From contig NZ_JAGGOK010000003.1 in NCBI RefSeq assembly GCF_018614615.1, forward strand, positions 62,001-126,000: DNA of 64,000 nt, written 5' to 3'. This document shows, in pieces, positions 11,519 through 27,590 of the stretch. The notes below the pieces were generated by a model. It did no database searches, was not told the DNA's origin, and saw only the letters and a list, made by a program, of their open reading frames with translations. The position numbers and the translations under genes were made by a program. Positions within the stretch are counted from its first letter, which is position 1. Each line of letters starts with the position of its first letter. Source of the stretch: Streptomyces sp. ISL-100 (GTDB lineage Bacteria > Actinomycetota > Actinomycetes > Streptomycetales > Streptomycetaceae).

Positions 11519-12154
11519 CTATGAGGACGCGTGGTGCAGGTGCTCGATGGCCACGCCGAGCCACGGTGCGGCCGGGCCGGTGAGGAGCAGGGGCGCGCAC
11601 GTGCTGTACGAGAGCACGACGGCGGGCGGTTCAGCGGCGACTCCGGTCAGGAGGACGTGGTCGAACGGCATCCACTCACGAGCCCCCACCGGCAGGAGCC
11701 GTACCCCGGCCGACGTGAGCACCACTCGGGCGGCGGTGTGATCGCGCCACTGCGGACGGGCGGCGTCCTCCGCTTCCTGCCGCCGACGGGCGTCGAGACG
11801 ACCGTTGCTCACCCACCGCCGGCCGAAGGTCGGGTGGTCCTCGAAATACCCGCTCGCCGAGGTCGGGTAGTCGACCCCTGTCCCGTAGAAGCGGGCGGCG
11901 GAGCACGCCACGTCCGCGAAGGCGACCTCACCGGCCGCAAGGGCAAGACCGTCCGCCTGGACCGGCACAAGACTGCCCCCGCCCTGGAGGTGAACCGCGA
12001 GGGCGGGCGCTGCCTGTACGGCATCGGCGCGGGCGGCGTCCTCAGCCCGGTCGCGTCGGCGAGACCACATCGTCATTCCTTCCTGATCAAGCTGACCGGC
12101 CAGGGCCTGTACGGCGCGAGCCACACAGGCCCCGGGCCCGTCATGAGATGACAT
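11519..12154 (-). CDS. Hypothetical protein of the replication operon
   Basis: A 211-residue soluble protein that I do not recognise. The first 60 residues are helical and charged. Residues about 105-205 look like a small alpha/beta fold with several Trp, Pro and His. No membrane segment is evident. The start at 12154 is preferred because its ATG overlaps the TGA of the DUF2637 gene (TGATG), giving coupling; an ATG about 75 bases further in is possible. It is the last gene before the palindromic terminator. Confidence 0.6.
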   Translation of the reverse strand: MSSHDGPGACVARAVQALAGQLDQEGMTMWSRRRDRAEDAARADAVQAAPALAVHLQGGGSLVPVQADGLALAAGEVAFADVACSAARFYGTGVDYPTSASGYFEDHPTFGRRWVSNGRLDARRRQEAEDAARPQWRDHTAARVVLTSAGVRLLPVGAREWMPFDHVLLTGVAAEPPAVVLSYSTCAPLLLTGPAAPWLGVAIEHLHHASS

Positions 12155-17381: not shown

Positions 17382-17726
17382 GCGACACTCCTTTATGTGG
17401 TACGCCGCTCCGTCGTGCCGTGCGAAAGGACACGGAGTGGCCGTGCGAGTGACCAGCGCCCTTGTCGGGGGCCGCGGATCACGAGCTGTCTGGCGTCCGA
17501 GAGGTGCGAACTCTCGGGCGCCGATGGCGTTTTGAGGGGAAGGACCGCGCCCGGTTGATGCGCGGTATCCCCTCTCCACCAAGTCGGACCACGATGGGAA
17601 CCGCAGGTGGGCGAAGGCTGAGAGGGGTGCGAACCCCCTCGTTTTTCGCTAAGATGAAGCTATCTTGGTTCGCATAAAAAGTCAACAGCCCGAGGTTTCC
17701 TCGGTTCACCACAAAAACGAGGTCCG
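17382..17726. promoter_or_regulatory. Divergent control region with repeated TGCGAAC operators
   Basis: 345 bases separate the minus-strand replication operon and the plus-strand regulator. Three sites share TGCGAAC. 17497-17517 has 7-bp arms (CCGAGAG/CTCTCGG) around GTGCGAA. 17622-17640 has GAGGGG/CCCCTC arms around TGCGAAC. 17667-17674 is the inverted copy GGTTCGCA. A further repeat CCGAGG-TTT-CCTCGG lies at 17690-17704, just before the regulator start. The AT-richer stretch 17641-17680 is the likely promoter area. The sites fit autoregulation by the adjacent XRE protein. Confidence 0.6.
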
Positions 17727-20519: not shown

Positions 20520-21635
20520 TCATGCGGCTGCGCGCAGTTCGTCGGATACCGCAATCAGTTGTTTCACATCCGACTCGCGGTCGCTCCCCAGCGCCATCGC
20601 AAGCGGGACGGCGCGGCGGGGCGCGGGGACCCCCTTCTCGATCCGAGCGGAGGCCCGGCGGAGCCGGGCGGCGAGCTCGGCGGAGTCGATGTTGAGGACT
20701 GTGCTGTCGTCACCCTCGTCCAGCAGGTACGGGCTGATGTCCACCAGGCCGTCGCGGCACTCCACGATGCGGCGGTGGTAGCGCCGGTGCACGCCACGGG
20801 CCCGCCATCGGTCCAGTGCAGCAGAGGATGCCGGCCTCAGCACGTTGTCCGGATACGCCTCCGCCAACAACTCCCACAGAGGCGAGAGGCGACGGTGATC
20901 ACGCCGGTGTTGAAGCCAGAGTCGTAGGGAGGAGATTCGCGCTCGGGCTCCGGAGTAGGTGACACCCGCGGCGAACAGCAGGATTGATGCGACCAAGAGG
21001 AAGGCCACGGCCGCCATAAGGAGATGTGGCACGTCCACGTCTGCTGAGCGAACGGCGACGATGACGGCTCGAATCGCGCACGCTACGGCCATCGCTCCCA
21101 GACCGACGGCGGTCATCCAGAGCCCGGTGGAGTGTGGGCGTCGGGACATGCGGGCGTATCGGCGAGTCCACCGAAACGCCATGCCGAGGGCATACATGAG
21201 GTAGAGGCCAGCGCCGCCGTAGAAGAAGGCGATCTGGGGAATCGTCATGTCGGCTGTGCTGAAGCTGCCGGCGAAGACCTCGTGCGGCACCGACAGCGCA
21301 GCCACGGTGATCGCGACTGCGACGACCCCGACGAGCACGGCTTCCCTGCGTGCCCGCCGACGCCCCGCTTCTTCGTCAGCGGCGGAGTAGAGGTAGAAGC
21401 ACATGAGGAAGTAGACCGTCAGGAGCAACAGGACGTTCTGGATCAGCTTCGCCGTCCCGTGGCCGGCGACGGTGTCGACTCCGGACGCGCCGCCGGGCAT
21501 CGCTACGGGGTACGAGAGCGCAGCGCAGAGCAGGCAGAGGGTGACCGAGCGAAGAGATGCGTCATGCGGGCTTCGCTTCCACTGGTAGAGCTTCCAGACC
21601 AGTGCGGCCAGGAGCCCCAGGAGCAGGAGTTCCAC
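20520..21635 (-). CDS. MAB_1171c-like polytopic membrane protein
   Basis: A 371-residue protein with about seven TM helices in residues 1-225. They are followed by a cytoplasmic helical domain (about 235-371) with L-W-x-L-L-A-E-A-Y-P and a Y-H-R-R-I-V-E-C-R-D-G-L segment. This is the pattern of the actinobacterial proteins annotated as MAB_1171c family putative transporters, which often neighbour ImmA/IrrE-type peptidases and XRE regulators. No transport motif is visible, and it may be a sensor. The GTG start lies three bases after the ImmA-like stop, and its stop area overlaps the amidohydrolase start region. Confidence 0.7.
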   Translation of the reverse strand: MELLLLGLLAALVWKLYQWKRSPHDASLRSVTLCLLCAALSYPVAMPGGASGVDTVAGHGTAKLIQNVLLLLTVYFLMCFYLYSAADEEAGRRRARREAVLVGVVAVAITVAALSVPHEVFAGSFSTADMTIPQIAFFYGGAGLYLMYALGMAFRWTRRYARMSRRPHSTGLWMTAVGLGAMAVACAIRAVIVAVRSADVDVPHLLMAAVAFLLVASILLFAAGVTYSGARARISSLRLWLQHRRDHRRLSPLWELLAEAYPDNVLRPASSAALDRWRARGVHRRYHRRIVECRDGLVDISPYLLDEGDDSTVLNIDSAELAARLRRASARIEKGVPAPRRAVPLAMALGSDRESDVKQLIAVSDELRAAA

Positions 21636-21638
21636 GAG

Positions 21639-22322
21639 TTACAGCCATCCTCGCCGGTCGCCAAGAGCCGCCTCGACCCGGCGCAGGGCGGGATCATCAG
21701 CCGGAGGAGTGGAGTTTGCGAGCAGGGCCGCCCACTCCAGGATGATCGTCGCCACGAGTTCGACGGAGCACTCCTCGCCGTCGTCGTACGAGCAACGCTG
21801 GGCGACACGCTTGACCGCCTCGGTCCCGAAGACCGGCAGCAGGGTGGCCCACCCCTCCACGTCGACGGCCGCCGCGTCTTCATCAGGGGCGGTATCGGGC
21901 GTGTCTGTCTCCACCCCGCGGGCGGAGTCCTCGGCTGCCTTCTCGTTCTCCGCCACGAGGATGTGCCCGACCTCGTGCAGGATGATCCCGTCCTGGTGCA
22001 GGTCGGTCGTCTCCTGCTGGTACAAGATCACGTCGTAGGTGTCGTACTCCGCCCACATGCCCGAGGGGCCGGGCTTGGGCAGCGGAGCTGCGCGCAGAAA
22101 CAGAGGGCGCCCGCGCCGTCGGCTCAGCTTCTCGCAGAGGTCGTGAACGTCGAGCGGGGGAGTGACCCCGAGATCTTGCAGCTCACGCCGAATCAGCCGG
22201 TGCAGATCCTTCTCCACCGTTCGGGCCGCGGCTGTACGCCAGCGCCCAAGGCGTCGGCGGGCTCCTCCTTGAGCGGGAACCTTGGGCTCCGCCGCGTCTC
22301 GACCACTCTTATCCGACCACAC
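21639..22322 (-). CDS. ImmA/IrrE-type metallopeptidase
   Basis: A 227-residue protein with the zinc-peptidase motif H-E-V-G-H at residues about 116-120, preceded by a helical N-terminal region (L-x-x-L-G-V-x-P-P-L-D-V-H-D-L) typical of ImmA/IrrE/DUF955. In ICEBs1 and phage 105, ImmA cleaves the XRE-type repressor and starts excision. Here the partner could be the XRE/EspR-like regulator at 17727. The GTG at 22322 is chosen because GGAGGG lies 8 bases upstream; the open frame continues upstream but without typical coding sense. An acidic stretch (about 130-155) follows the motif. Confidence 0.8.
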   Translation of the reverse strand: MWSDKSGRDAAEPKVPAQGGARRRLGRWRTAAARTVEKDLHRLIRRELQDLGVTPPLDVHDLCEKLSRRRGRPLFLRAAPLPKPGPSGMWAEYDTYDVILYQQETTDLHQDGIILHEVGHILVAENEKAAEDSARGVETDTPDTAPDEDAAAVDVEGWATLLPVFGTEAVKRVAQRCSYDDGEECSVELVATIILEWAALLANSTPPADDPALRRVEAALGDRRGWL

Positions 22323-22889
22323 TGAGTAATCCCTCCAACCGGCTGTGATGGCTCCCCGAGCCGGGCGACACCGCGCCCATGACGATGACGTCCGGTTCCC
22401 GGCGCCGGAAACGACCGCAGTCGGCTGCACCCGCGCCCCACTAAACCCCCTCGCAGGGGGAGGGATGTTAGACATCCAGGGCTCGCCATCTGCTCGGATG
22501 TCACGTCCGCGAACGCACCCTGACACCCGAGCGGGGCTGCCCCGTGGAGCTCCCGGGAACCTCTTTGGACAGTACGTGACGCTTCAGACAAGACATGGCC
22601 TAAAAAGCATGATCGATTCGTGTAGGCGGCAGGTAACTTCGGCCAGTCAAAGCGTCCTAAATCAACCTTGTTGAAACGCGTACGGGGCTTTGAACTGCGG
22701 CTTTACGGTCTGGCGTGAACGGATCAATTTTCGCGAGTCGATGGGTGACTCCGTTATCAACCTGAGACTTTAGGTAGGGCCAGCACTCTCGCAAACGCCC
22801 GCGAAGTGGACAAAATGGCTGATCGGAAGGGGTGTGGTGGCGGTCACTCTGGGGCAGTTCGGGCAACTGCGGCGTTTACGCTTTCAGCC
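22323..22889. promoter_or_regulatory. Divergent intergenic region, AT-richer part at right
   Basis: 567 bases between the ImmA-like operon and the PPOX gene, with no convincing gene. The part 22590-22800 is clearly less GC-rich than the surroundings. Just before the PPOX start a TAnnnT hexamer (TACGCT, 22877-22882) sits 7 bases from the ATG, fitting a leaderless promoter. I see no other strong signal. Confidence 0.35.
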
Positions 22890-23327
22890 ATGTCGAACGC
22901 GATATCCGCCCAGTCGGACAGCTACCTGGAGTTCTGGAACGAGTACCACCTGTGCACATTGACCACGCTGCGGCCCAATGGGCGACCGCATGTTGTGCCG
23001 GTCGGTGTGACGGTGGATGCCACCGCTGGCGTGGCCCGAGTTATCACCCGCAAATCGAGTCGTAAAGTGGCCAACATTCTCGCGAGCGGGGGCGAAGCCC
23101 GCGTAGCCGTGTGCCAGGTCGACGGCGGCCGGTGGGCCACGCTCGAAGGGGTCGCGGAGGTGTGCACCGACGAGACTGTGGTCGAAGACGCGGTTGCCCG
23201 TTACGGAAAGCGATACGGCCGTACGCCGGCCCCGGACCCCGAGCGGGTGGTCATCCTGATCTCGGTCGAACGGGCACTGGGTCAGACCTTGGGCGCCCGA
23301 CCTCAGACAGGCCAAGCCGCTGCGTAG
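22890..23327 (+). CDS. PPOX-class FMN/F420-dependent oxidoreductase-like protein
   Basis: A 145-residue split-barrel flavin-fold protein. The N-terminal H-L-C-T-L-T-T-L-R-P-N-G-R-P-H-V-V-P-V is the signature of pyridoxamine-phosphate-oxidase-like proteins, and later W-A-T-L-E-G-V-A-E-V matches the second barrel half. The actinobacterial relatives (TIGR03618-type) use F420 or FMN, and the true substrate cannot be told. The ATG at 22890 is chosen by alignment with the family N-terminus. No Shine-Dalgarno is present, but a TACGCT hexamer 7 bases upstream suggests a leaderless transcript. Confidence 0.75.
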   Translation: MSNAISAQSDSYLEFWNEYHLCTLTTLRPNGRPHVVPVGVTVDATAGVARVITRKSSRKVANILASGGEARVAVCQVDGGRWATLEGVAEVCTDETVVEDAVARYGKRYGRTPAPDPERVVILISVERALGQTLGARPQTGQAAA

Positions 23328-23430
23328 CGTTAAGCGACCCACGACATAGGCATATGCAGACCCTGAGCGTTACTCAGCCCTGAGTTTTCCTCAGGGGTGG
23401 CCGCCCGAAGTGGCTCTACGTTTGCGGGTC

Positions 23431-25254
23431 ATGACAACAAGTCACGAACAGACGGAACCCGGCGCGGCACCCTTACCGCCCGCGAAGCCACACCCCGCGT
23501 TGAGCGCGGCTCTGCCCGACGGCACTATCCACAGCATCGTCGCGCGCCTGGCCGCCCACCTGAAGGAGCAGGACGGAGGGCCAGCTTCGCCGCCAGCGCT
23601 GGCCCTCGGCATCTTCGAGAGGGTCGGATCGAACTGGCTGTCCGACTCGTTGCGCGGGGCGATGCCGCAGCACAACGAGCCTTTTCGCCAACAGCTCGGC
23701 CGCGAACACCCGCTGTCGCCTGGAAACCGCGTACCGCCAAGCCTTCAGGGAACCGGACTCACTGGCTTGGGCTGGCACCATCTCCTCGGCGCGCTCAGCG
23801 ACCTGCACGGGGAACCACGGCACTTGGTCAAGGAGACGAACCTCTTCTTCGCCACGGACACCGTCTTGGGGATGCTGCCTGATTCGCCGGCCGTCATCCT
23901 CACCCGGGCACCCATCGGAATCGCTTCCTCATTCGCCCGAGGTCGGCTCTGGGACCGATGGCGCTACGGCGACCGCTACGCCCAGGTTGCCGCGACGGCC
24001 CGCGCCCCGAGGTGGCGTACGGTCTTCGCCCCGCTCCTTCCGCAGGACGACCCCGATCCGGCCACCGCTTTGGGGCGGCTGATCGTCGTGAACTCCCTGC
24101 TGCTCGCCCGCGCCCTCTTCGACGGAGCCGAGCCGTCCCGCCGCCCTCGCCTGGTCATCCCGTACGAACAGCACGTCAGCGATCCTGTACGCACAGAAGC
24201 GGGTCTCACCCAGTTCCTCGGTATCGAAATGCCGGAACCGGCCGGTGAGTCGCCTAACGCTGCTGACGCCACAGCTGCGACGGACACCACCTTCGCCACC
24301 ATCGGACGCAAGGAGACCTTAGTCGCCGAGTTGGTCCCCGGTGTGGTGGACCTCGTCAGCACTGCGGTAGAGAAGACCGTCGCCCAGGCCCGCCAACAGC
24401 TCGACCCCGAAGTGACCGAGATCGTCACCCAGTGGCTAGCTGGTGACGATCAGTACGAGGTGCACGAACCCGTGCTCCGGCCCAGCCACCGCGTCCGCAC
24501 CCAACTTGCTCCCCAGCGGACGGCCAAGCCGGCTTACAGGCCGGTAGGGCGAGCCCAGTGGCGCAATCTGCTGGTCACCAACGCGGAAATGGCCGAGCTG
24601 CTGACCATGCTGCACGCGGGCGGTGCGGTGAACTCCCGGCTCGGCACCAATCTCCTGGTCTGCCCGATGCCCCACGAACGTGGTGGACGCCTCCACTACG
24701 ACCCGGTCGATCGGCGCTGGCGGGTCAGCCGCGGATACGAGTCCCATCCTGCGTACTGGGTCACCTGGATCGGGGCGGCCGTCGCGGCAGCATGGTTCGG
24801 AGCGCGGTTGCCCAGCCGGGCCGAAGCCTTGGACGCCACGAAGGGCGCGCGGGCGTACAACAGCGGCTATGCCGTGGGCGACAGCTGTCCTGTGATGGAA
24901 CCCGGCCTTGGCGACCGGGAGATTCACCACCTGATCGGCAACGTTCAGATCTGGTGTGGCGATGGCCCTGCGCTGCCTGAAGCCCAGCCCTTGCAGCGGT
25001 ACTTGTTCGGCGCGGCCTGGAACACTCCGAGCACCGAAGATGCGGTGTCAGCCGTCCGCTCGCGCTACCTGCTGGGCTCCTCACGAGGCGTTGGGGTTCG
25101 CTTGGTGCGCGACCCCCAAACCACCGATGCCGCCCGGCTCGGAGCTTGGGAGCTGGCGCACCTGCTCAATCAGTGGGTCGACGCCGTCAACGAGTCCGCC
25201 CGGACCACGCCAGGCGGACTCGACCGGCTGCTGATCAGTTCGCTGGGCCTATAG
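23431..25254 (+). CDS. Sulfotransferase-like domain fused to a SUMF1/FGE-like domain
   Basis: A 607-residue two-domain protein. Residues about 55-265 look like a PAPS sulfotransferase: a phosphosulfate-loop-like E-R-V-G-S-N-W-L (63-70), and I-L-T-R-A-P-I-G-I-A-S-S-F at about 156-168 matching the 3'-phosphate-binding RdP..S motif. A helical linker (about 290-345) leads to residues 375-562, which resemble the formylglycine-generating enzyme fold: Y-W-V-T-W-I-G-A-A, R-L-P-S-R-A-E-A, G-N-V-Q-I-W-C and G-V-R-L-V-R-D. The active-site Cys pair of true FGE is missing; only Cys411, 486 and 509 occur in this half. The ATG at 23431 is preferred over 23410, with TACGTT 8 bases upstream. Function is unknown. 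Confidence 0.65.
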   Translation: MTTSHEQTEPGAAPLPPAKPHPALSAALPDGTIHSIVARLAAHLKEQDGGPASPPALALGIFERVGSNWLSDSLRGAMPQHNEPFRQQLGREHPLSPGNRVPPSLQGTGLTGLGWHHLLGALSDLHGEPRHLVKETNLFFATDTVLGMLPDSPAVILTRAPIGIASSFARGRLWDRWRYGDRYAQVAATARAPRWRTVFAPLLPQDDPDPATALGRLIVVNSLLLARALFDGAEPSRRPRLVIPYEQHVSDPVRTEAGLTQFLGIEMPEPAGESPNAADATAATDTTFATIGRKETLVAELVPGVVDLVSTAVEKTVAQARQQLDPEVTEIVTQWLAGDDQYEVHEPVLRPSHRVRTQLAPQRTAKPAYRPVGRAQWRNLLVTNAEMAELLTMLHAGGAVNSRLGTNLLVCPMPHERGGRLHYDPVDRRWRVSRGYESHPAYWVTWIGAAVAAAWFGARLPSRAEALDATKGARAYNSGYAVGDSCPVMEPGLGDREIHHLIGNVQIWCGDGPALPEAQPLQRYLFGAAWNTPSTEDAVSAVRSRYLLGSSRGVGVRLVRDPQTTDAARLGAWELAHLLNQWVDAVNESARTTPGGLDRLLISSLGL

Positions 25255-25677
25255 GCCGATCGCGGACTTCGGCCCCATGTACGAACCCGCGCCCGGGAAC
25301 CCGTCCCGGCAGAGCTTCACGAACACGTCACTGAAGCCTCGGTCGGGCAGGTCGTCCAGCGCCACGAACTCGACGCCTCGGATCGGCCGCGTGTCCGCAC
25401 CCTCCTTGACTGCTCCGATCTCCCCGCCCACGATGCGGGCCTCGAAGGTGATGTGAACGACGTGAGCACTCGTGTTGTCGCACAGATACAGCAACCGGCC
25501 CACTTCAACCTCGGCGCCGGTTTCCTCCCGCATCTCTCTGATCAGCGCCTCTTCCAGAGCCTCGCCGTCCTCGACCTTGCCGCCGGGCAGGGACCAAGTC
25601 CTGGGGCCGTCGGTGTCCTGGTTGAGCACCAAGATCTTGTCGTCCTCAATGGCGATGCCCGTCACACGTGTATGCAT
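25249..25677 (-). CDS. NUDIX hydrolase
   Basis: A 142-residue NUDIX enzyme. The full box is present around residues 32-54: G-G-K-V-E-D-G-E then R-E-M-R-E-E-T-G, giving the Gx5Ex7REUxEExGU pattern, preceded by W-S-L-P. It would hydrolyse a nucleoside diphosphate linked to another group; the substrate is unknown. It converges with the fusion gene, the two stops sharing CTATAG (25249-25254), and diverges from the nucleotidyltransferase gene. A TAGCGT hexamer lies 6 bases before the ATG on its strand, compatible with leaderless transcription. Confidence 0.9.
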   Translation of the reverse strand: MHTRVTGIAIEDDKILVLNQDTDGPRTWSLPGGKVEDGEALEEALIREMREETGAEVEVGRLLYLCDNTSAHVVHITFEARIVGGEIGAVKEGADTRPIRGVEFVALDDLPDRGFSDVFVKLCRDGFPGAGSYMGPKSAIGL

Positions 25678-25721
25678 CTGCCGACGCTATCGCTCGGCGG
25701 ACCGGCCCGAAGGGGACACCG

Positions 25722-26561
25722 ATGAATCGGCCGTCAACCTCCGTCGTGCCACCTGTGGTGATCGCCGCTGGTGGATTGGGCACCCGCGTAGGCAGTTGGT
25801 CACCGTACCTGCCCAAGGAGCTCCGGCCTGTCTGCGGCCGGCCGGGCCTCGCGCACATCGTGGACGAGGCCGCCGCCATCGGGAGCGATCGCGCCGTAGT
25901 AGTCCACCACCCGTACTACACGCCGCTGATCGACTGGACCCGCCAGGTCCTTGCTCCAGGGGCTTTGGCCCGCTATCAGAGCCTCACGAACCAGCTTCCG
26001 GTGCAGCCCCGAGCCGCCGACCATCTGCAAGTCGACTTCATCGCCCAACACGGCCGATACGCCGATGTCACGTCCGTGTTGAACGGTTCCGAACACATGC
26101 GCACGGGGGAGTTCTACGTGGTCTTTGCTGACAACGTCGACCCGACCCATACAGCGCTGTCCGCCCTCGTCACAGCGACTCCGTCGGCCATTCCGGCGGT
26201 TCTGGCGGCACCGTTCGACGCCAGCGCGGCAAGCAGCCACGGAGTGATCGTCTGTACTGGCGAGGGGCCGGTGCAGAGGATGGTGGGGCTGGTCGAGAAA
26301 CCCGACCGAGACGAGACGATCCGCCTGGAGGCGGAGTGCGGCATCGCCAACCTCCGACTCCTTCAAGGCCGGATGAGAGTGACGCCGAGGCTGCTGCGCT
26401 ACCTGGCGGTAGTCGCTCAGAGCACGAGCAGCGAGCCGAAGCTTTCGTTGGCCTTGGCCTCGTACGCGAGATCGCATCGCGTTGATGTGGTAACCAATAC
26501 GAAGCCCTTGACGGATCTCGGCGTACCGAGTCCGACGAGAGAACTGGTGCCGGGCAACTGA
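25722..26561 (+). CDS. GalU-like sugar-1-phosphate nucleotidyltransferase
   Basis: A 279-residue nucleotidyltransferase-fold protein. The N-terminus has A-A-G-G-L-G-T-R-V followed by L-P-K-E-L-R-P-V, the nucleotide-binding signature of glucose-1-phosphate uridylyl- and thymidylyltransferases. F-A-D-N-V-D-P near residue 140 is the metal site, and V-E-K-P lies near 205. It would make an NDP-sugar or related metabolite. A clear AAGGGGA precedes the ATG at 25722. Only 44 bases separate it from the divergent NUDIX gene, suggesting joint control. It is the last gene before the attachment site, a classic cargo position. Confidence 0.85.
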   Translation: MNRPSTSVVPPVVIAAGGLGTRVGSWSPYLPKELRPVCGRPGLAHIVDEAAAIGSDRAVVVHHPYYTPLIDWTRQVLAPGALARYQSLTNQLPVQPRAADHLQVDFIAQHGRYADVTSVLNGSEHMRTGEFYVVFADNVDPTHTALSALVTATPSAIPAVLAAPFDASAASSHGVIVCTGEGPVQRMVGLVEKPDRDETIRLEAECGIANLRLLQGRMRVTPRLLRYLAVVAQSTSSEPKLSLALASYARSHRVDVVTNTKPLTDLGVPSPTRELVPGN

Positions 26562-26820
26562 CCACAGAGGTGGGCAGGGACCGGTGCTGACGCCAACGAG
26601 GCCGCTCGTGGGCCACCGTCACCGCTTTGCTGGCGCAAGGGGTGTGGGTCGGAACGCGTATCGGCAGTCTGGCAAGGCGGGAAGGGGTTTGATCGAGGTC
26701 GGAGATTTCCTTCAGCAACGTGTGTCGGTCCCGTGTTGACGCGTCAACACGGGAGCCGGATCGAGGCAGATAGAGCAGGATGCAGGAGGATGGAAACAGG
26801 GCCTAATGTCCCGGTTCTCC
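26562..26820. other. Gene-free right end of the element with a 26-bp perfect palindrome
   Basis: No convincing gene. A perfect palindrome lies at 26729-26754 (TCCCGTGTTGACG and its exact reverse complement), about 100 bases left of the tRNA remnant. It may be a terminator for the nucleotidyltransferase gene or an arm site for integrase or excisionase. Confidence 0.5.
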
Positions 26821-26853
26821 GGCGTTTCCGCAGGTCAGAGCGATAACGATTTT

Positions 26854-26877
26854 GGGTTCGAATCTCCTAGGCTCCAC
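26854..26877 (+). other. attR-type site: 3' end of a tRNA gene
   Basis: The bases include GGTTCGAATC and AGGCTCCAC, the T-arm and acceptor end of a tRNA, most like Streptomyces tRNA-Ala(TGC) from memory, with one T-stem base changed. No 5' half exists upstream, so this is a duplicated 3' end left by site-specific integration. The intact tRNA and the integrase gene should lie left of the window. Two copies of a 17-bp direct repeat (26824-26840 and 26900-26916) flank it. Confidence 0.75.
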
Positions 26878-26884
26878 AACGCAC

Positions 26885-26927
26885 ATGTCCCTCTGACCTG
26901 TTTCCGCAGGTCAGAGGGACATTTTTT
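26885..26927 (+). terminator. Strong intrinsic terminator right of the tRNA remnant
   Basis: Perfect 15-bp stem (26885-26899 and 26908-26922) with an 8-nt loop and six T. It is probably the original terminator of the host tRNA gene. It also faces the end of the response-regulator gene (26931), so it may act from both sides. Confidence 0.85.
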
Positions 26928-26930
26928 GGT

Positions 26931-27590
26931 TCACAGCGCGGCGTCGCGGGCGAGCAGCGCCGCCTGTACGCGGTTCTCGCAGCCCAGCTTCGCGAGGATC
27001 CGGCTCACGTACGTCTTGACCGTGGCCTCGCTCATGTGGAGCCGCTTGCCCGCGTCCGCGTTCGACAGGCCCTCGCCGAGCAGCGCGAGGACGTCCCGCT
27101 CCCGCGCGCTCAGCGCCGTGACCAGCTGCCGCGCCCGCTCGGCGCGGGCCGGCGCCCGCCCCGAGGCGAGCTGTTCCACGACGTGCCGGGTCGCCCCCGG
27201 CGACAGGTAGGCGTCCCCGGCCGCGGCGGCCCGTACCGCACGGATCAGCTCGGCCGGTGCGGAGTCCTTCAGCAGGAAGCCCGCGCCGCCGCTCTCCAGG
27301 GCGCGCAGGACGCTCTCCCGTTCGCCGAACGTCGTCAGTACGATCACGCGCGCCCCGGGCACCGCCCTGCCCAGTTCCGCGAGGGCGGTGAGCCCGTCCA
27401 TCACCGGCATCTGAAGGTCGAGCAGCACCACGTCCGGCGCGTGGACGCGCGCCAGCTCGACGGCCTCGCGGCCGTTCGCCGCCTCCGCCACGACCTCGAT
27501 GGCCCGGTCCGAGGTGAGGATCATCCGGATGCCCGCCCGGATGAGGGGCTCGTCATCGGCGATCACGACCCTGACGTGCGCAACCGTCAT
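26931..27590 (-). CDS. NarL/LuxR-family response regulator
   Basis: A 219-residue response regulator. The receiver domain has the acidic pair D-D-E near residues 12-14 and the phospho-acceptor Asp58 in V-L-L-D-L-Q-M-P. A LuxR-type HTH spans about residues 150-212 (L-S-A-R-E-R-D-V-L ... S-E-A-T-V-K-T-Y-V-S-R-I). The ATG at 27590 is chosen because of a GGGGGG run 5 bases upstream; another ATG at 27617 abuts the kinase stop. Together with the kinase gene it forms a two-component operon. The signal is unknown. Confidence 0.9.
   Translation of the reverse strand: MTVAHVRVVIADDEPLIRAGIRMILTSDRAIEVVAEAANGREAVELARVHAPDVVLLDLQMPVMDGLTALAELGRAVPGARVIVLTTFGERESVLRALESGGAGFLLKDSAPAELIRAVRAAAAGDAYLSPGATRHVVEQLASGRAPARAERARQLVTALSARERDVLALLGEGLSNADAGKRLHMSEATVKTYVSRILAKLGCENRVQAALLARDAAL

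Follow-up and report, generated by a model that had tools for sequence, protein, structure and literature searches.

The window analyzed here (the whole stretch of DNA, 64 kb in length) contains a gene that codes for a 607-aa fusion protein, designated ST-SUMF1, in which a sulfotransferase-fold domain is followed by a SUMF1-type domain. It is accompanied by two genes absent from the earlier note on this DNA, as was their antisense layout: a Nudix hydrolase gene on the opposite strand and a GalU-like nucleotidyltransferase gene on the same strand as the fusion gene. The features of this three-gene module are listed below.

23431..25254, + strand: ST-SUMF1 fusion protein, 607 aa, uninterrupted open frame
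23521..24453, + strand: sulfotransferase-fold domain, residues ~31-341 (AlphaFold2 model, VIA, PF13469 in 8 of 12 members, conservation)
24526..25110, + strand: SUMF1-superfamily domain without the FGE cysteine pair, residues ~366-560 (PF03781 in 12 of 12 members, hhalign, VIA)
25249..25677, − strand: Nudix hydrolase, 142 aa, located between two + strand genes (PF00293, E 6.9e-18)
25684..25689, − strand: −10-like element TAGCGT, 6 nt before the Nudix start codon, predicted promoter of the leaderless type
25722..26561, + strand: GalU-like sugar-1-phosphate nucleotidyltransferase, 279 aa (NTP_transf_3, 4.3e-7; galU, 9.6e-11)
26885..26922, + strand: T-tailed terminator-like hairpin with a 17-bp stem, after the nucleotidyltransferase gene (the one site found in 22500-27000)

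The two halves of the fusion protein

The reading frame of ST-SUMF1 contains no internal stop codon and carries every motif given in the earlier note: E63-R-V-G-S-N-W-L70, R159-A-P...S166-S167-F168, R459-L-P-S-R-A-E465, G503-N-V-Q-I-W-C509 and G555-V-R-L-V-R560. Across an alignment of 12 family members, the window protein included (mean identity 57%), these motifs vary little or not at all. Recurrence as one frame in independent genomes excludes an assembly artefact, and both domains are under purifying selection (five pairs each; dN/dS of 0.17-0.28 in the sulfotransferase domain and 0.16-0.31 in the SUMF1 domain). In the pairs tested, the frames of all three module genes gave dN/dS values of 0.11-0.35.

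The two Pfam matches of the window protein each lie in the expected half and below the curated cut-off: Sulfotransfer_3 (PF13469) at residues 124-268 (21.9 bits vs. a cut-off of 27) and FGE-sulfatase (PF03781) at residues 432-485 (21.5 bits vs. 23.3). At E<=0.01, the former family was matched by 8 of the 12 aligned members (best E 6.5e-7) and the latter by all 12 (best E 5.7e-7). ST-SUMF1 had no match in NCBIfam, PADLOC or PHROGs. A PDB sequence search with the single protein gave 0 matches, and the profile of the alignment retrieved 16 sequences with E values of 0.0045-0.42, all across the SUMF1 half. The two halves together are covered by no single model of Pfam, NCBIfam or PADLOC; the earlier note could likewise name no described family containing this fusion. 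Each part of the module is of a known kind; the fusion and its partner genes are without description in the literature searched, a set with most subscription journals outside its scope, and the word "fusion" is absent from the portion of PMC4659905 that was covered.

Structural models and Pfam, together with profile comparisons for the SUMF1 half, bore out the proposed combination of a sulfotransferase fold with a SUMF1-type domain devoid of the FGE cysteine pair. According to its AlphaFold2 model, the N-terminal half has the fold of a PAPS sulfotransferase. The model, generated from the 12-row alignment, had a pLDDT of 60.5 overall, with 14 of the 31 ten-residue blocks of residues 31-340 at pLDDT >=80. 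It matched sulfotransferases in both Foldseek and VIA, these proteins forming the top Foldseek rows and all 50 of the VIA matches listed. The best VIA match was the CurM sulfotransferase (4gbm; Z 13.6, rmsd 3.9, 216 aligned), followed by the olefin-synthase sulfotransferase (4gox; Z 13.0) and then human TPST1.

Within this half, K134, R159 and S167 are invariant in the 12 rows, and R64, G66, S67, N68 and E83 are nearly so. PAPS sulfotransferases obey a spacing rule for the Arg and Ser of the 3′-phosphate site, and a pair of this type is present (R159/S167, 8 residues apart). The 5′ phosphosulfate loop (residues 64-67, RVGS), usually of the SGTT type, reads RVGSN, and is thus degenerate yet nearly invariant in the 12 rows; the model is weak across residues 61-90, which include both this loop and E83 (block pLDDT 63-68). 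As judged by eye in a comparison of seven loci, the order of landmarks is shared with two Streptomyces Sulfotransfer_3 proteins (L054 and L055). The profile comparison of the sulfotransferase half with these proteins placed them in the right register at a non-significant level (probability 0.8%, E 0.07). A supply of PAPS in the host is plausible, because two matches to the APS_kinase family in its genome exceed the cut-off.

The C-terminal half was compared by hhalign with three SUMF1-type domains from its own genome, one comparison giving a probability of 97 (E 1.2e-10); its best PDB profile matches were SUMF2, FGE and EgtB, of which SUMF2 was co-linear to the C-terminus. A separate AlphaFold2 model of this half was poor (pLDDT 55, pTM 0.60; best Foldseek E 0.2). 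When this low-confidence model was compared by VIA, 29 of the 34 matches listed were FGE, SUMF2, EgtB or OvsA (Z 5.7-6.9), and the remaining five were CalU17 (Z 7.1, the top match), PorK/PorN, CarF, ToxD and Endo180 (Z 2.5). Of these, CalU17, PorK/PorN, CarF and ToxD are presumably also SUMF1-like. From sequence and model, we read the C-terminal half as a Cys-less domain of the SUMF1 superfamily.

The translation confirmed that no Cys occurs beyond residue 509; the C-terminal catalytic Cys pair is therefore missing, which rules out an FGE. Identification as an EgtB was likewise ruled out, because the N-terminal DinB iron-binding domain is absent from all 12 members (Pfam, E<=0.01). Five residues of the SUMF1 half, H422, H439, H499, H500 and C509, are invariant in the 12 rows. 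Another unusual SUMF1 architecture, consisting of an HTH-like N-terminus (by eye) and a SUMF1 domain, is encoded elsewhere in the same genome (L035, 1123-2049).

A three-gene module with an antisense gene

The ST-SUMF1 (+), Nudix (−) and nucleotidyltransferase (+) genes occurred together in 13 of 16 genome loci; several of the loci are closely related and hence do not count as independent cases. Of these 13, L006 runs into a contig end, L014 is missing the N-terminal part and L015 carries a frameshift; the other three loci (L005, L013 and L016) contain pieces of the sulfotransferase half alone. The 16 loci belong to the soil actinomycetes Streptomyces, Kitasatospora, Hamadaea, Paractinoplanes, Winogradskya, Nocardiopsis, Nonomuraea and Fodinicola. 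The layout recurs across four actinomycete orders: as listed, Streptomyces represents the Kitasatosporales, Nocardiopsis the Streptosporangiales and Fodinicola the Mycobacteriales, and Hamadaea and its kin are taken here to be Micromonosporales.

Within the genus, ST-SUMF1 was detected in 10 of 392 genomes (4 full-length copies and 6 fragments), and the nucleotidyltransferase profile matched 6 of 199. Four of these six (G000, G019, G148 and G150) contain a full ST-SUMF1, G025 a C-terminal remnant of it, and G146 a nucleotidyltransferase fragment beside a Nudix remnant. A phylum-wide search with the ST-SUMF1 alignment gave 1 match in 396 at E<=1e-15, which was the genome of the window itself. 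In L027, a piece of the sulfotransferase half directly adjoins the tail of the nucleotidyltransferase gene; this remnant looks like a deletion scar.

The stop codons of the ST-SUMF1 and Nudix genes of the window both lie inside the palindrome GGCCTATAGGCC, and the 3′ ends of the two genes overlap by 6 bp. Such an overlap was found in 13 of 14 loci, and was exactly 6 bp in 9 of them; a gap of 44 bp within the module is present in 8 of the 14. Outside the module, the flanks differ between most loci, whereas the three genes, their overlapping ends and the promoter-like element are fixed. None of the 14 loci contained a terminator-like site between the ST-SUMF1 stop codon and the nucleotidyltransferase gene, which is a weak test, because the scan also found none within 500 bases after the latter gene in 12 of 14 loci. 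In the window, the single terminator-like site of region 22500-27000 compares with a mean of 2.6 in shuffled sequences, i.e. the count is not above chance.

The Nudix hydrolase is the most conserved protein of the module (72% mean identity, 11 rows). Its Nudix box, GX5EX7REUXEEXGU, is intact, its profile matched PDB entry 3id9 over nearly the full length (E 3.3e-47), and it was the only module protein with matches in PHROGs. A known anti-phage system was rejected: PADLOC returned one match among the three module proteins, that of the Nudix hydrolase to the candidate PDC-S07 (E 3.4e-15; residues 5-89, a common fold), and none for the other two.

In actinomycetes, a −10 element placed just before the start codon (TANNNT-N6-RTG) marks a leaderless mRNA. 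This pattern was present at a Nudix start codon in all 18 loci examined; spacers of 4-9 were allowed from ~35 bases upstream to 50 downstream, and all 18 matches had a spacer of 6. Thirteen were situated at the previously used Nudix start, and those of L007-L009 and L014 at a start codon in the same frame, 11 or 7 codons into the longest Nudix frame; in L015, for which the reference point is arbitrary, the match falls at the BLAST start. Both strands of the whole 64 kb window together contain four matches to the pattern, that of the Nudix gene included.

The nucleotidyltransferase shows 54% mean identity (13 rows), and its GGLGTR, PKE, EKP and Asp motifs of the GalU type are invariant in these rows. 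GalU-type enzymes were the best matches in the PDB profile search (E 2.5e-17). The start was set at the ATG that follows the ribosome-binding-site-like sequence AAGGGG in the window, in accordance with the RefSeq start of the L020 homologue (a longer frame begins at 25668). TANNNT was absent from the 45 bases before this gene in 11 of the 13 loci with a sound start (L011, with the ATG at 12085, was left out of this count); in the other two, the nucleotidyltransferase gene may have its own promoter, since TANNNT lies 34 nt before the start.

A hidden ORF antisense to the Nudix gene was also rejected: in none of 13 loci were stop codons fewer than in synonymous shuffles at P<0.05 (lowest value 0.09). 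Synonymous divergence (dS) was lowest in the Nudix gene among four regions in 45 of 54 pairs (median ratio 0.73; of 78 pairs, 24 were saturated and excluded), which is at most a hint, because the pairs are non-independent and codon bias could explain it. In two Nonomuraea loci (L012:9986-13054 and L014:9941-12286), the ST-SUMF1 and nucleotidyltransferase genes form one continuous frame, with the whole Nudix gene nested antisense to it. We do not claim a fused protein, because the linker is without protein-level constraint (dN/dS of 2.4 in its frame vs. 0.30 in the Nudix frame, an estimate biased by the overlap).

The earlier claim that the fusion gene is cargo of a conjugative element was upheld as far as conjugation genes nearby and relatives on plasmids are concerned; the ends of an element were not found, and cargo status is therefore likely rather than proven. 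A Pfam scan of six proteins encoded at 1-10.5 kb gave matches for three: TraG/TrwB, an AAA ATPase with a weak TraG match, and an SLT + NlpC/P60 protein. The two proteins scanned at 31-35 kb were a rhomboid protease and a glutamine amidotransferase, as in an ordinary chromosome. Relatives of ST-SUMF1, covering 94-95% of the protein, are present on Streptomyces plasmids of 1.6 Mb and 134 kb, and a third plasmid (127 kb) carries a remnant of the sulfotransferase half. A phage origin was rejected, with no match in phage or viral-contig collections. The gene is single-copy in its own genome, apart from a possible remnant immediately upstream of the window (L018; G000:C78:59742-59906, − strand) that weakly matches residues 1-58 of the fusion protein (47%, E 1.9e-4).

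Several other elements were noted in these regions. Positions 17397-17526 (+ strand) of the window match the Rfam family of the Streptomyces sRNA Scr6925 (50.7 bits vs. a cut-off of 50). A putative transporter of the MAB_1171c family is encoded at 20520-21635 (− strand; NCBIfam, 349 bits), preceded by a gene for a protein of 295 aa that lacked any Pfam match at E<=1 (21639-22526, − strand); in L001, L002 and L005, too, the transporter gene is found upstream of the module or of what remains of it. Downstream of the module in L020 (13110-16557) and L004 (13082-16562) lies a second module, composed of genes for a hypothetical protein, a B12-radical SAM protein, thymidylate kinase and a Nudix protein. 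Its radical SAM protein is encoded on 15 plasmid records, 12 of them from Streptomyces, and the three Streptomyces plasmids whose flanks were viewed carry it without ST-SUMF1.

Possible function of the module

Starting from the folds, the conservation, the fixed layout with overlapping ends and the conserved −10-like element, we infer activity, substrate and transcription. The new kind of sulfur-group transfer or signalling enzyme suggested in the earlier note is likewise hypothetical. We tentatively propose, at somewhat less than even confidence, that the module is a mobile cassette for the PAPS-dependent sulfation of a nucleotide-activated small molecule, organized as a noncontiguous operon and opposed by antisense-encoded Nudix hydrolysis. 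The horizontally moved cassette would activate and sulfate its small molecule in the cytosol in the following way: (i) the GalU-like enzyme, judging from its family and retained motifs, would join a sugar-1-phosphate-like metabolite to an NTP, (ii) ST-SUMF1 would transfer sulfate from PAPS to the activated compound or a product of it, its N-terminal domain holding PAPS via RVGS and R159/S167, with E83 as the likely base, and its Cys-less SUMF1 domain holding the acceptor rather than making formylglycine, and (iii) the Nudix hydrolase would cleave the nucleotide-linked intermediate. One transcript may start with the ST-SUMF1 gene, cross the antisense Nudix gene and continue into the nucleotidyltransferase gene; with the Nudix gene served by its own leaderless promoter, the transcripts for synthesis and hydrolysis would therefore oppose each other.

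The strongest competitor of this proposal, which we hold to be rather unlikely, assigns the three genes the usual tailoring roles in a small natural-product or glycoconjugate pathway; in this view, the sulfotransferase would act on the finished product, and the antisense order would be frozen history devoid of regulatory meaning. Gene order can indeed persist when a module moves as a block, the lack of terminator-like sites is a weak test, and in two loci the neighbour is a distinct module for nucleotide metabolism (radical SAM, tmk, Nudix), which travels without the ST-SUMF1 module in other Streptomyces plasmids. What speaks against mere history is that genes, overlapping ends and promoter-like element stay fixed next to flanks that mostly differ.

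A conflict or anti-phage module, in which the nucleotidyltransferase and ST-SUMF1 would make a nucleotide effector or modify a component of the invader, and the Nudix hydrolase would serve as the antidote, seems improbable. The module is patchy, mobile and often decayed, it lies in a window with conjugation genes, and its Nudix hydrolase matches the candidate PDC-S07; set against this, that match is confined to part of a common fold, the other two genes are blank in PADLOC, Pfam assigned neither a toxin nor a sensor domain to any of the three proteins, and the phage and viral-contig collections contained nothing similar. It is very improbable that the SUMF1 domain is the catalyst, as an EgtB/OvoA-like iron enzyme forming a C-S bond, with the sulfotransferase fold only presenting a sulfo- or phospho-nucleotide substrate: the five invariant His and Cys residues and the structure matches to EgtB and OvsA would fit, but the DinB iron domain is absent (Pfam) and residue conservation at the sulfotransferase site points to its being in use.

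Returning to the sulfation cassette, a bolder version of it, which we consider unlikely, would make the module a genetic toggle, in which the antisense leaderless hydrolase gene is interleaved with the synthesis genes for a sulfated nucleotide-activated metabolite, transcription decides between synthesis and breakdown, and the SUMF1 domain supplies the acceptor site.

The unnamed sulfotransferase-fold/SUMF1 fusion gains a setting that bears on function, namely a nucleotidyltransferase and a Nudix hydrolase. The module can also serve as a compact, mobile model for testing whether selection maintains antisense interleaving of genes, with the element found in 18 of 18 loci while the flanks turn over. 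If the pathway reading were true, a new class of sulfated nucleotide-linked metabolites would become directly searchable.

Comparison with known systems

With the sulfotransferases of CurM and the olefin synthase (4gbm and 4gox; PF13469), ST-SUMF1 shares the fold, the Arg and Ser spacing of the 3′-phosphate site and, by eye, a Glu where those enzymes have the catalytic base. It differs from them in its RVGSN loop, the fused C-terminal SUMF1 domain and the low sequence score. SUMF2 and EgtB/OvsA are members of the SUMF1 superfamily that lack the FGE Cys pair; their landmarks HPxxxVTW, RLP, GN(V/L)xxWC and GVRLV are all found in ST-SUMF1, co-linear with SUMF2 to the C-terminus. In contrast to these proteins, ST-SUMF1 contains the family-specific blocks MPHERGGRLH and GAAWNTP, and its N-terminal partner domain is a sulfotransferase and not, as in EgtB, DinB. 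With FGE, the C-terminal half shares the fold family, whereas the catalytic Cys pair is missing and the conserved neighbours are Nudix and nucleotidyltransferase genes instead of a sulfatase gene.

Streptomyces pathways with sulfotransferase proteins include the nucleocidin/ascamycin sulfamate clusters (PMC10946740, PMC4257720). According to the portions of these sources covered, NucO of the nucleocidin pathway is likewise a weak Sulfotransfer_3 match with a model closest to CurM; unlike the module described here, the clusters as presented there contain no SUMF1 fusion and no Nudix or nucleotidyltransferase module.

Noncontiguous operons with this kind of layout were absent from the literature matches listed. 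The general arrangement, an opposite-strand gene between same-strand genes, resembles that of the noncontiguous operon menE-menC-MW1733-ytkD-MW1731 of S. aureus, in which, as far as the covered part of PMC7154746 goes, a gene of the opposite strand lies within the operon, with mutual interference. Compared with what that part of the source describes, two features set the module apart: its layout spans four orders, and its antisense gene is predicted to encode a hydrolase acting on the type of product made by a neighbouring gene.
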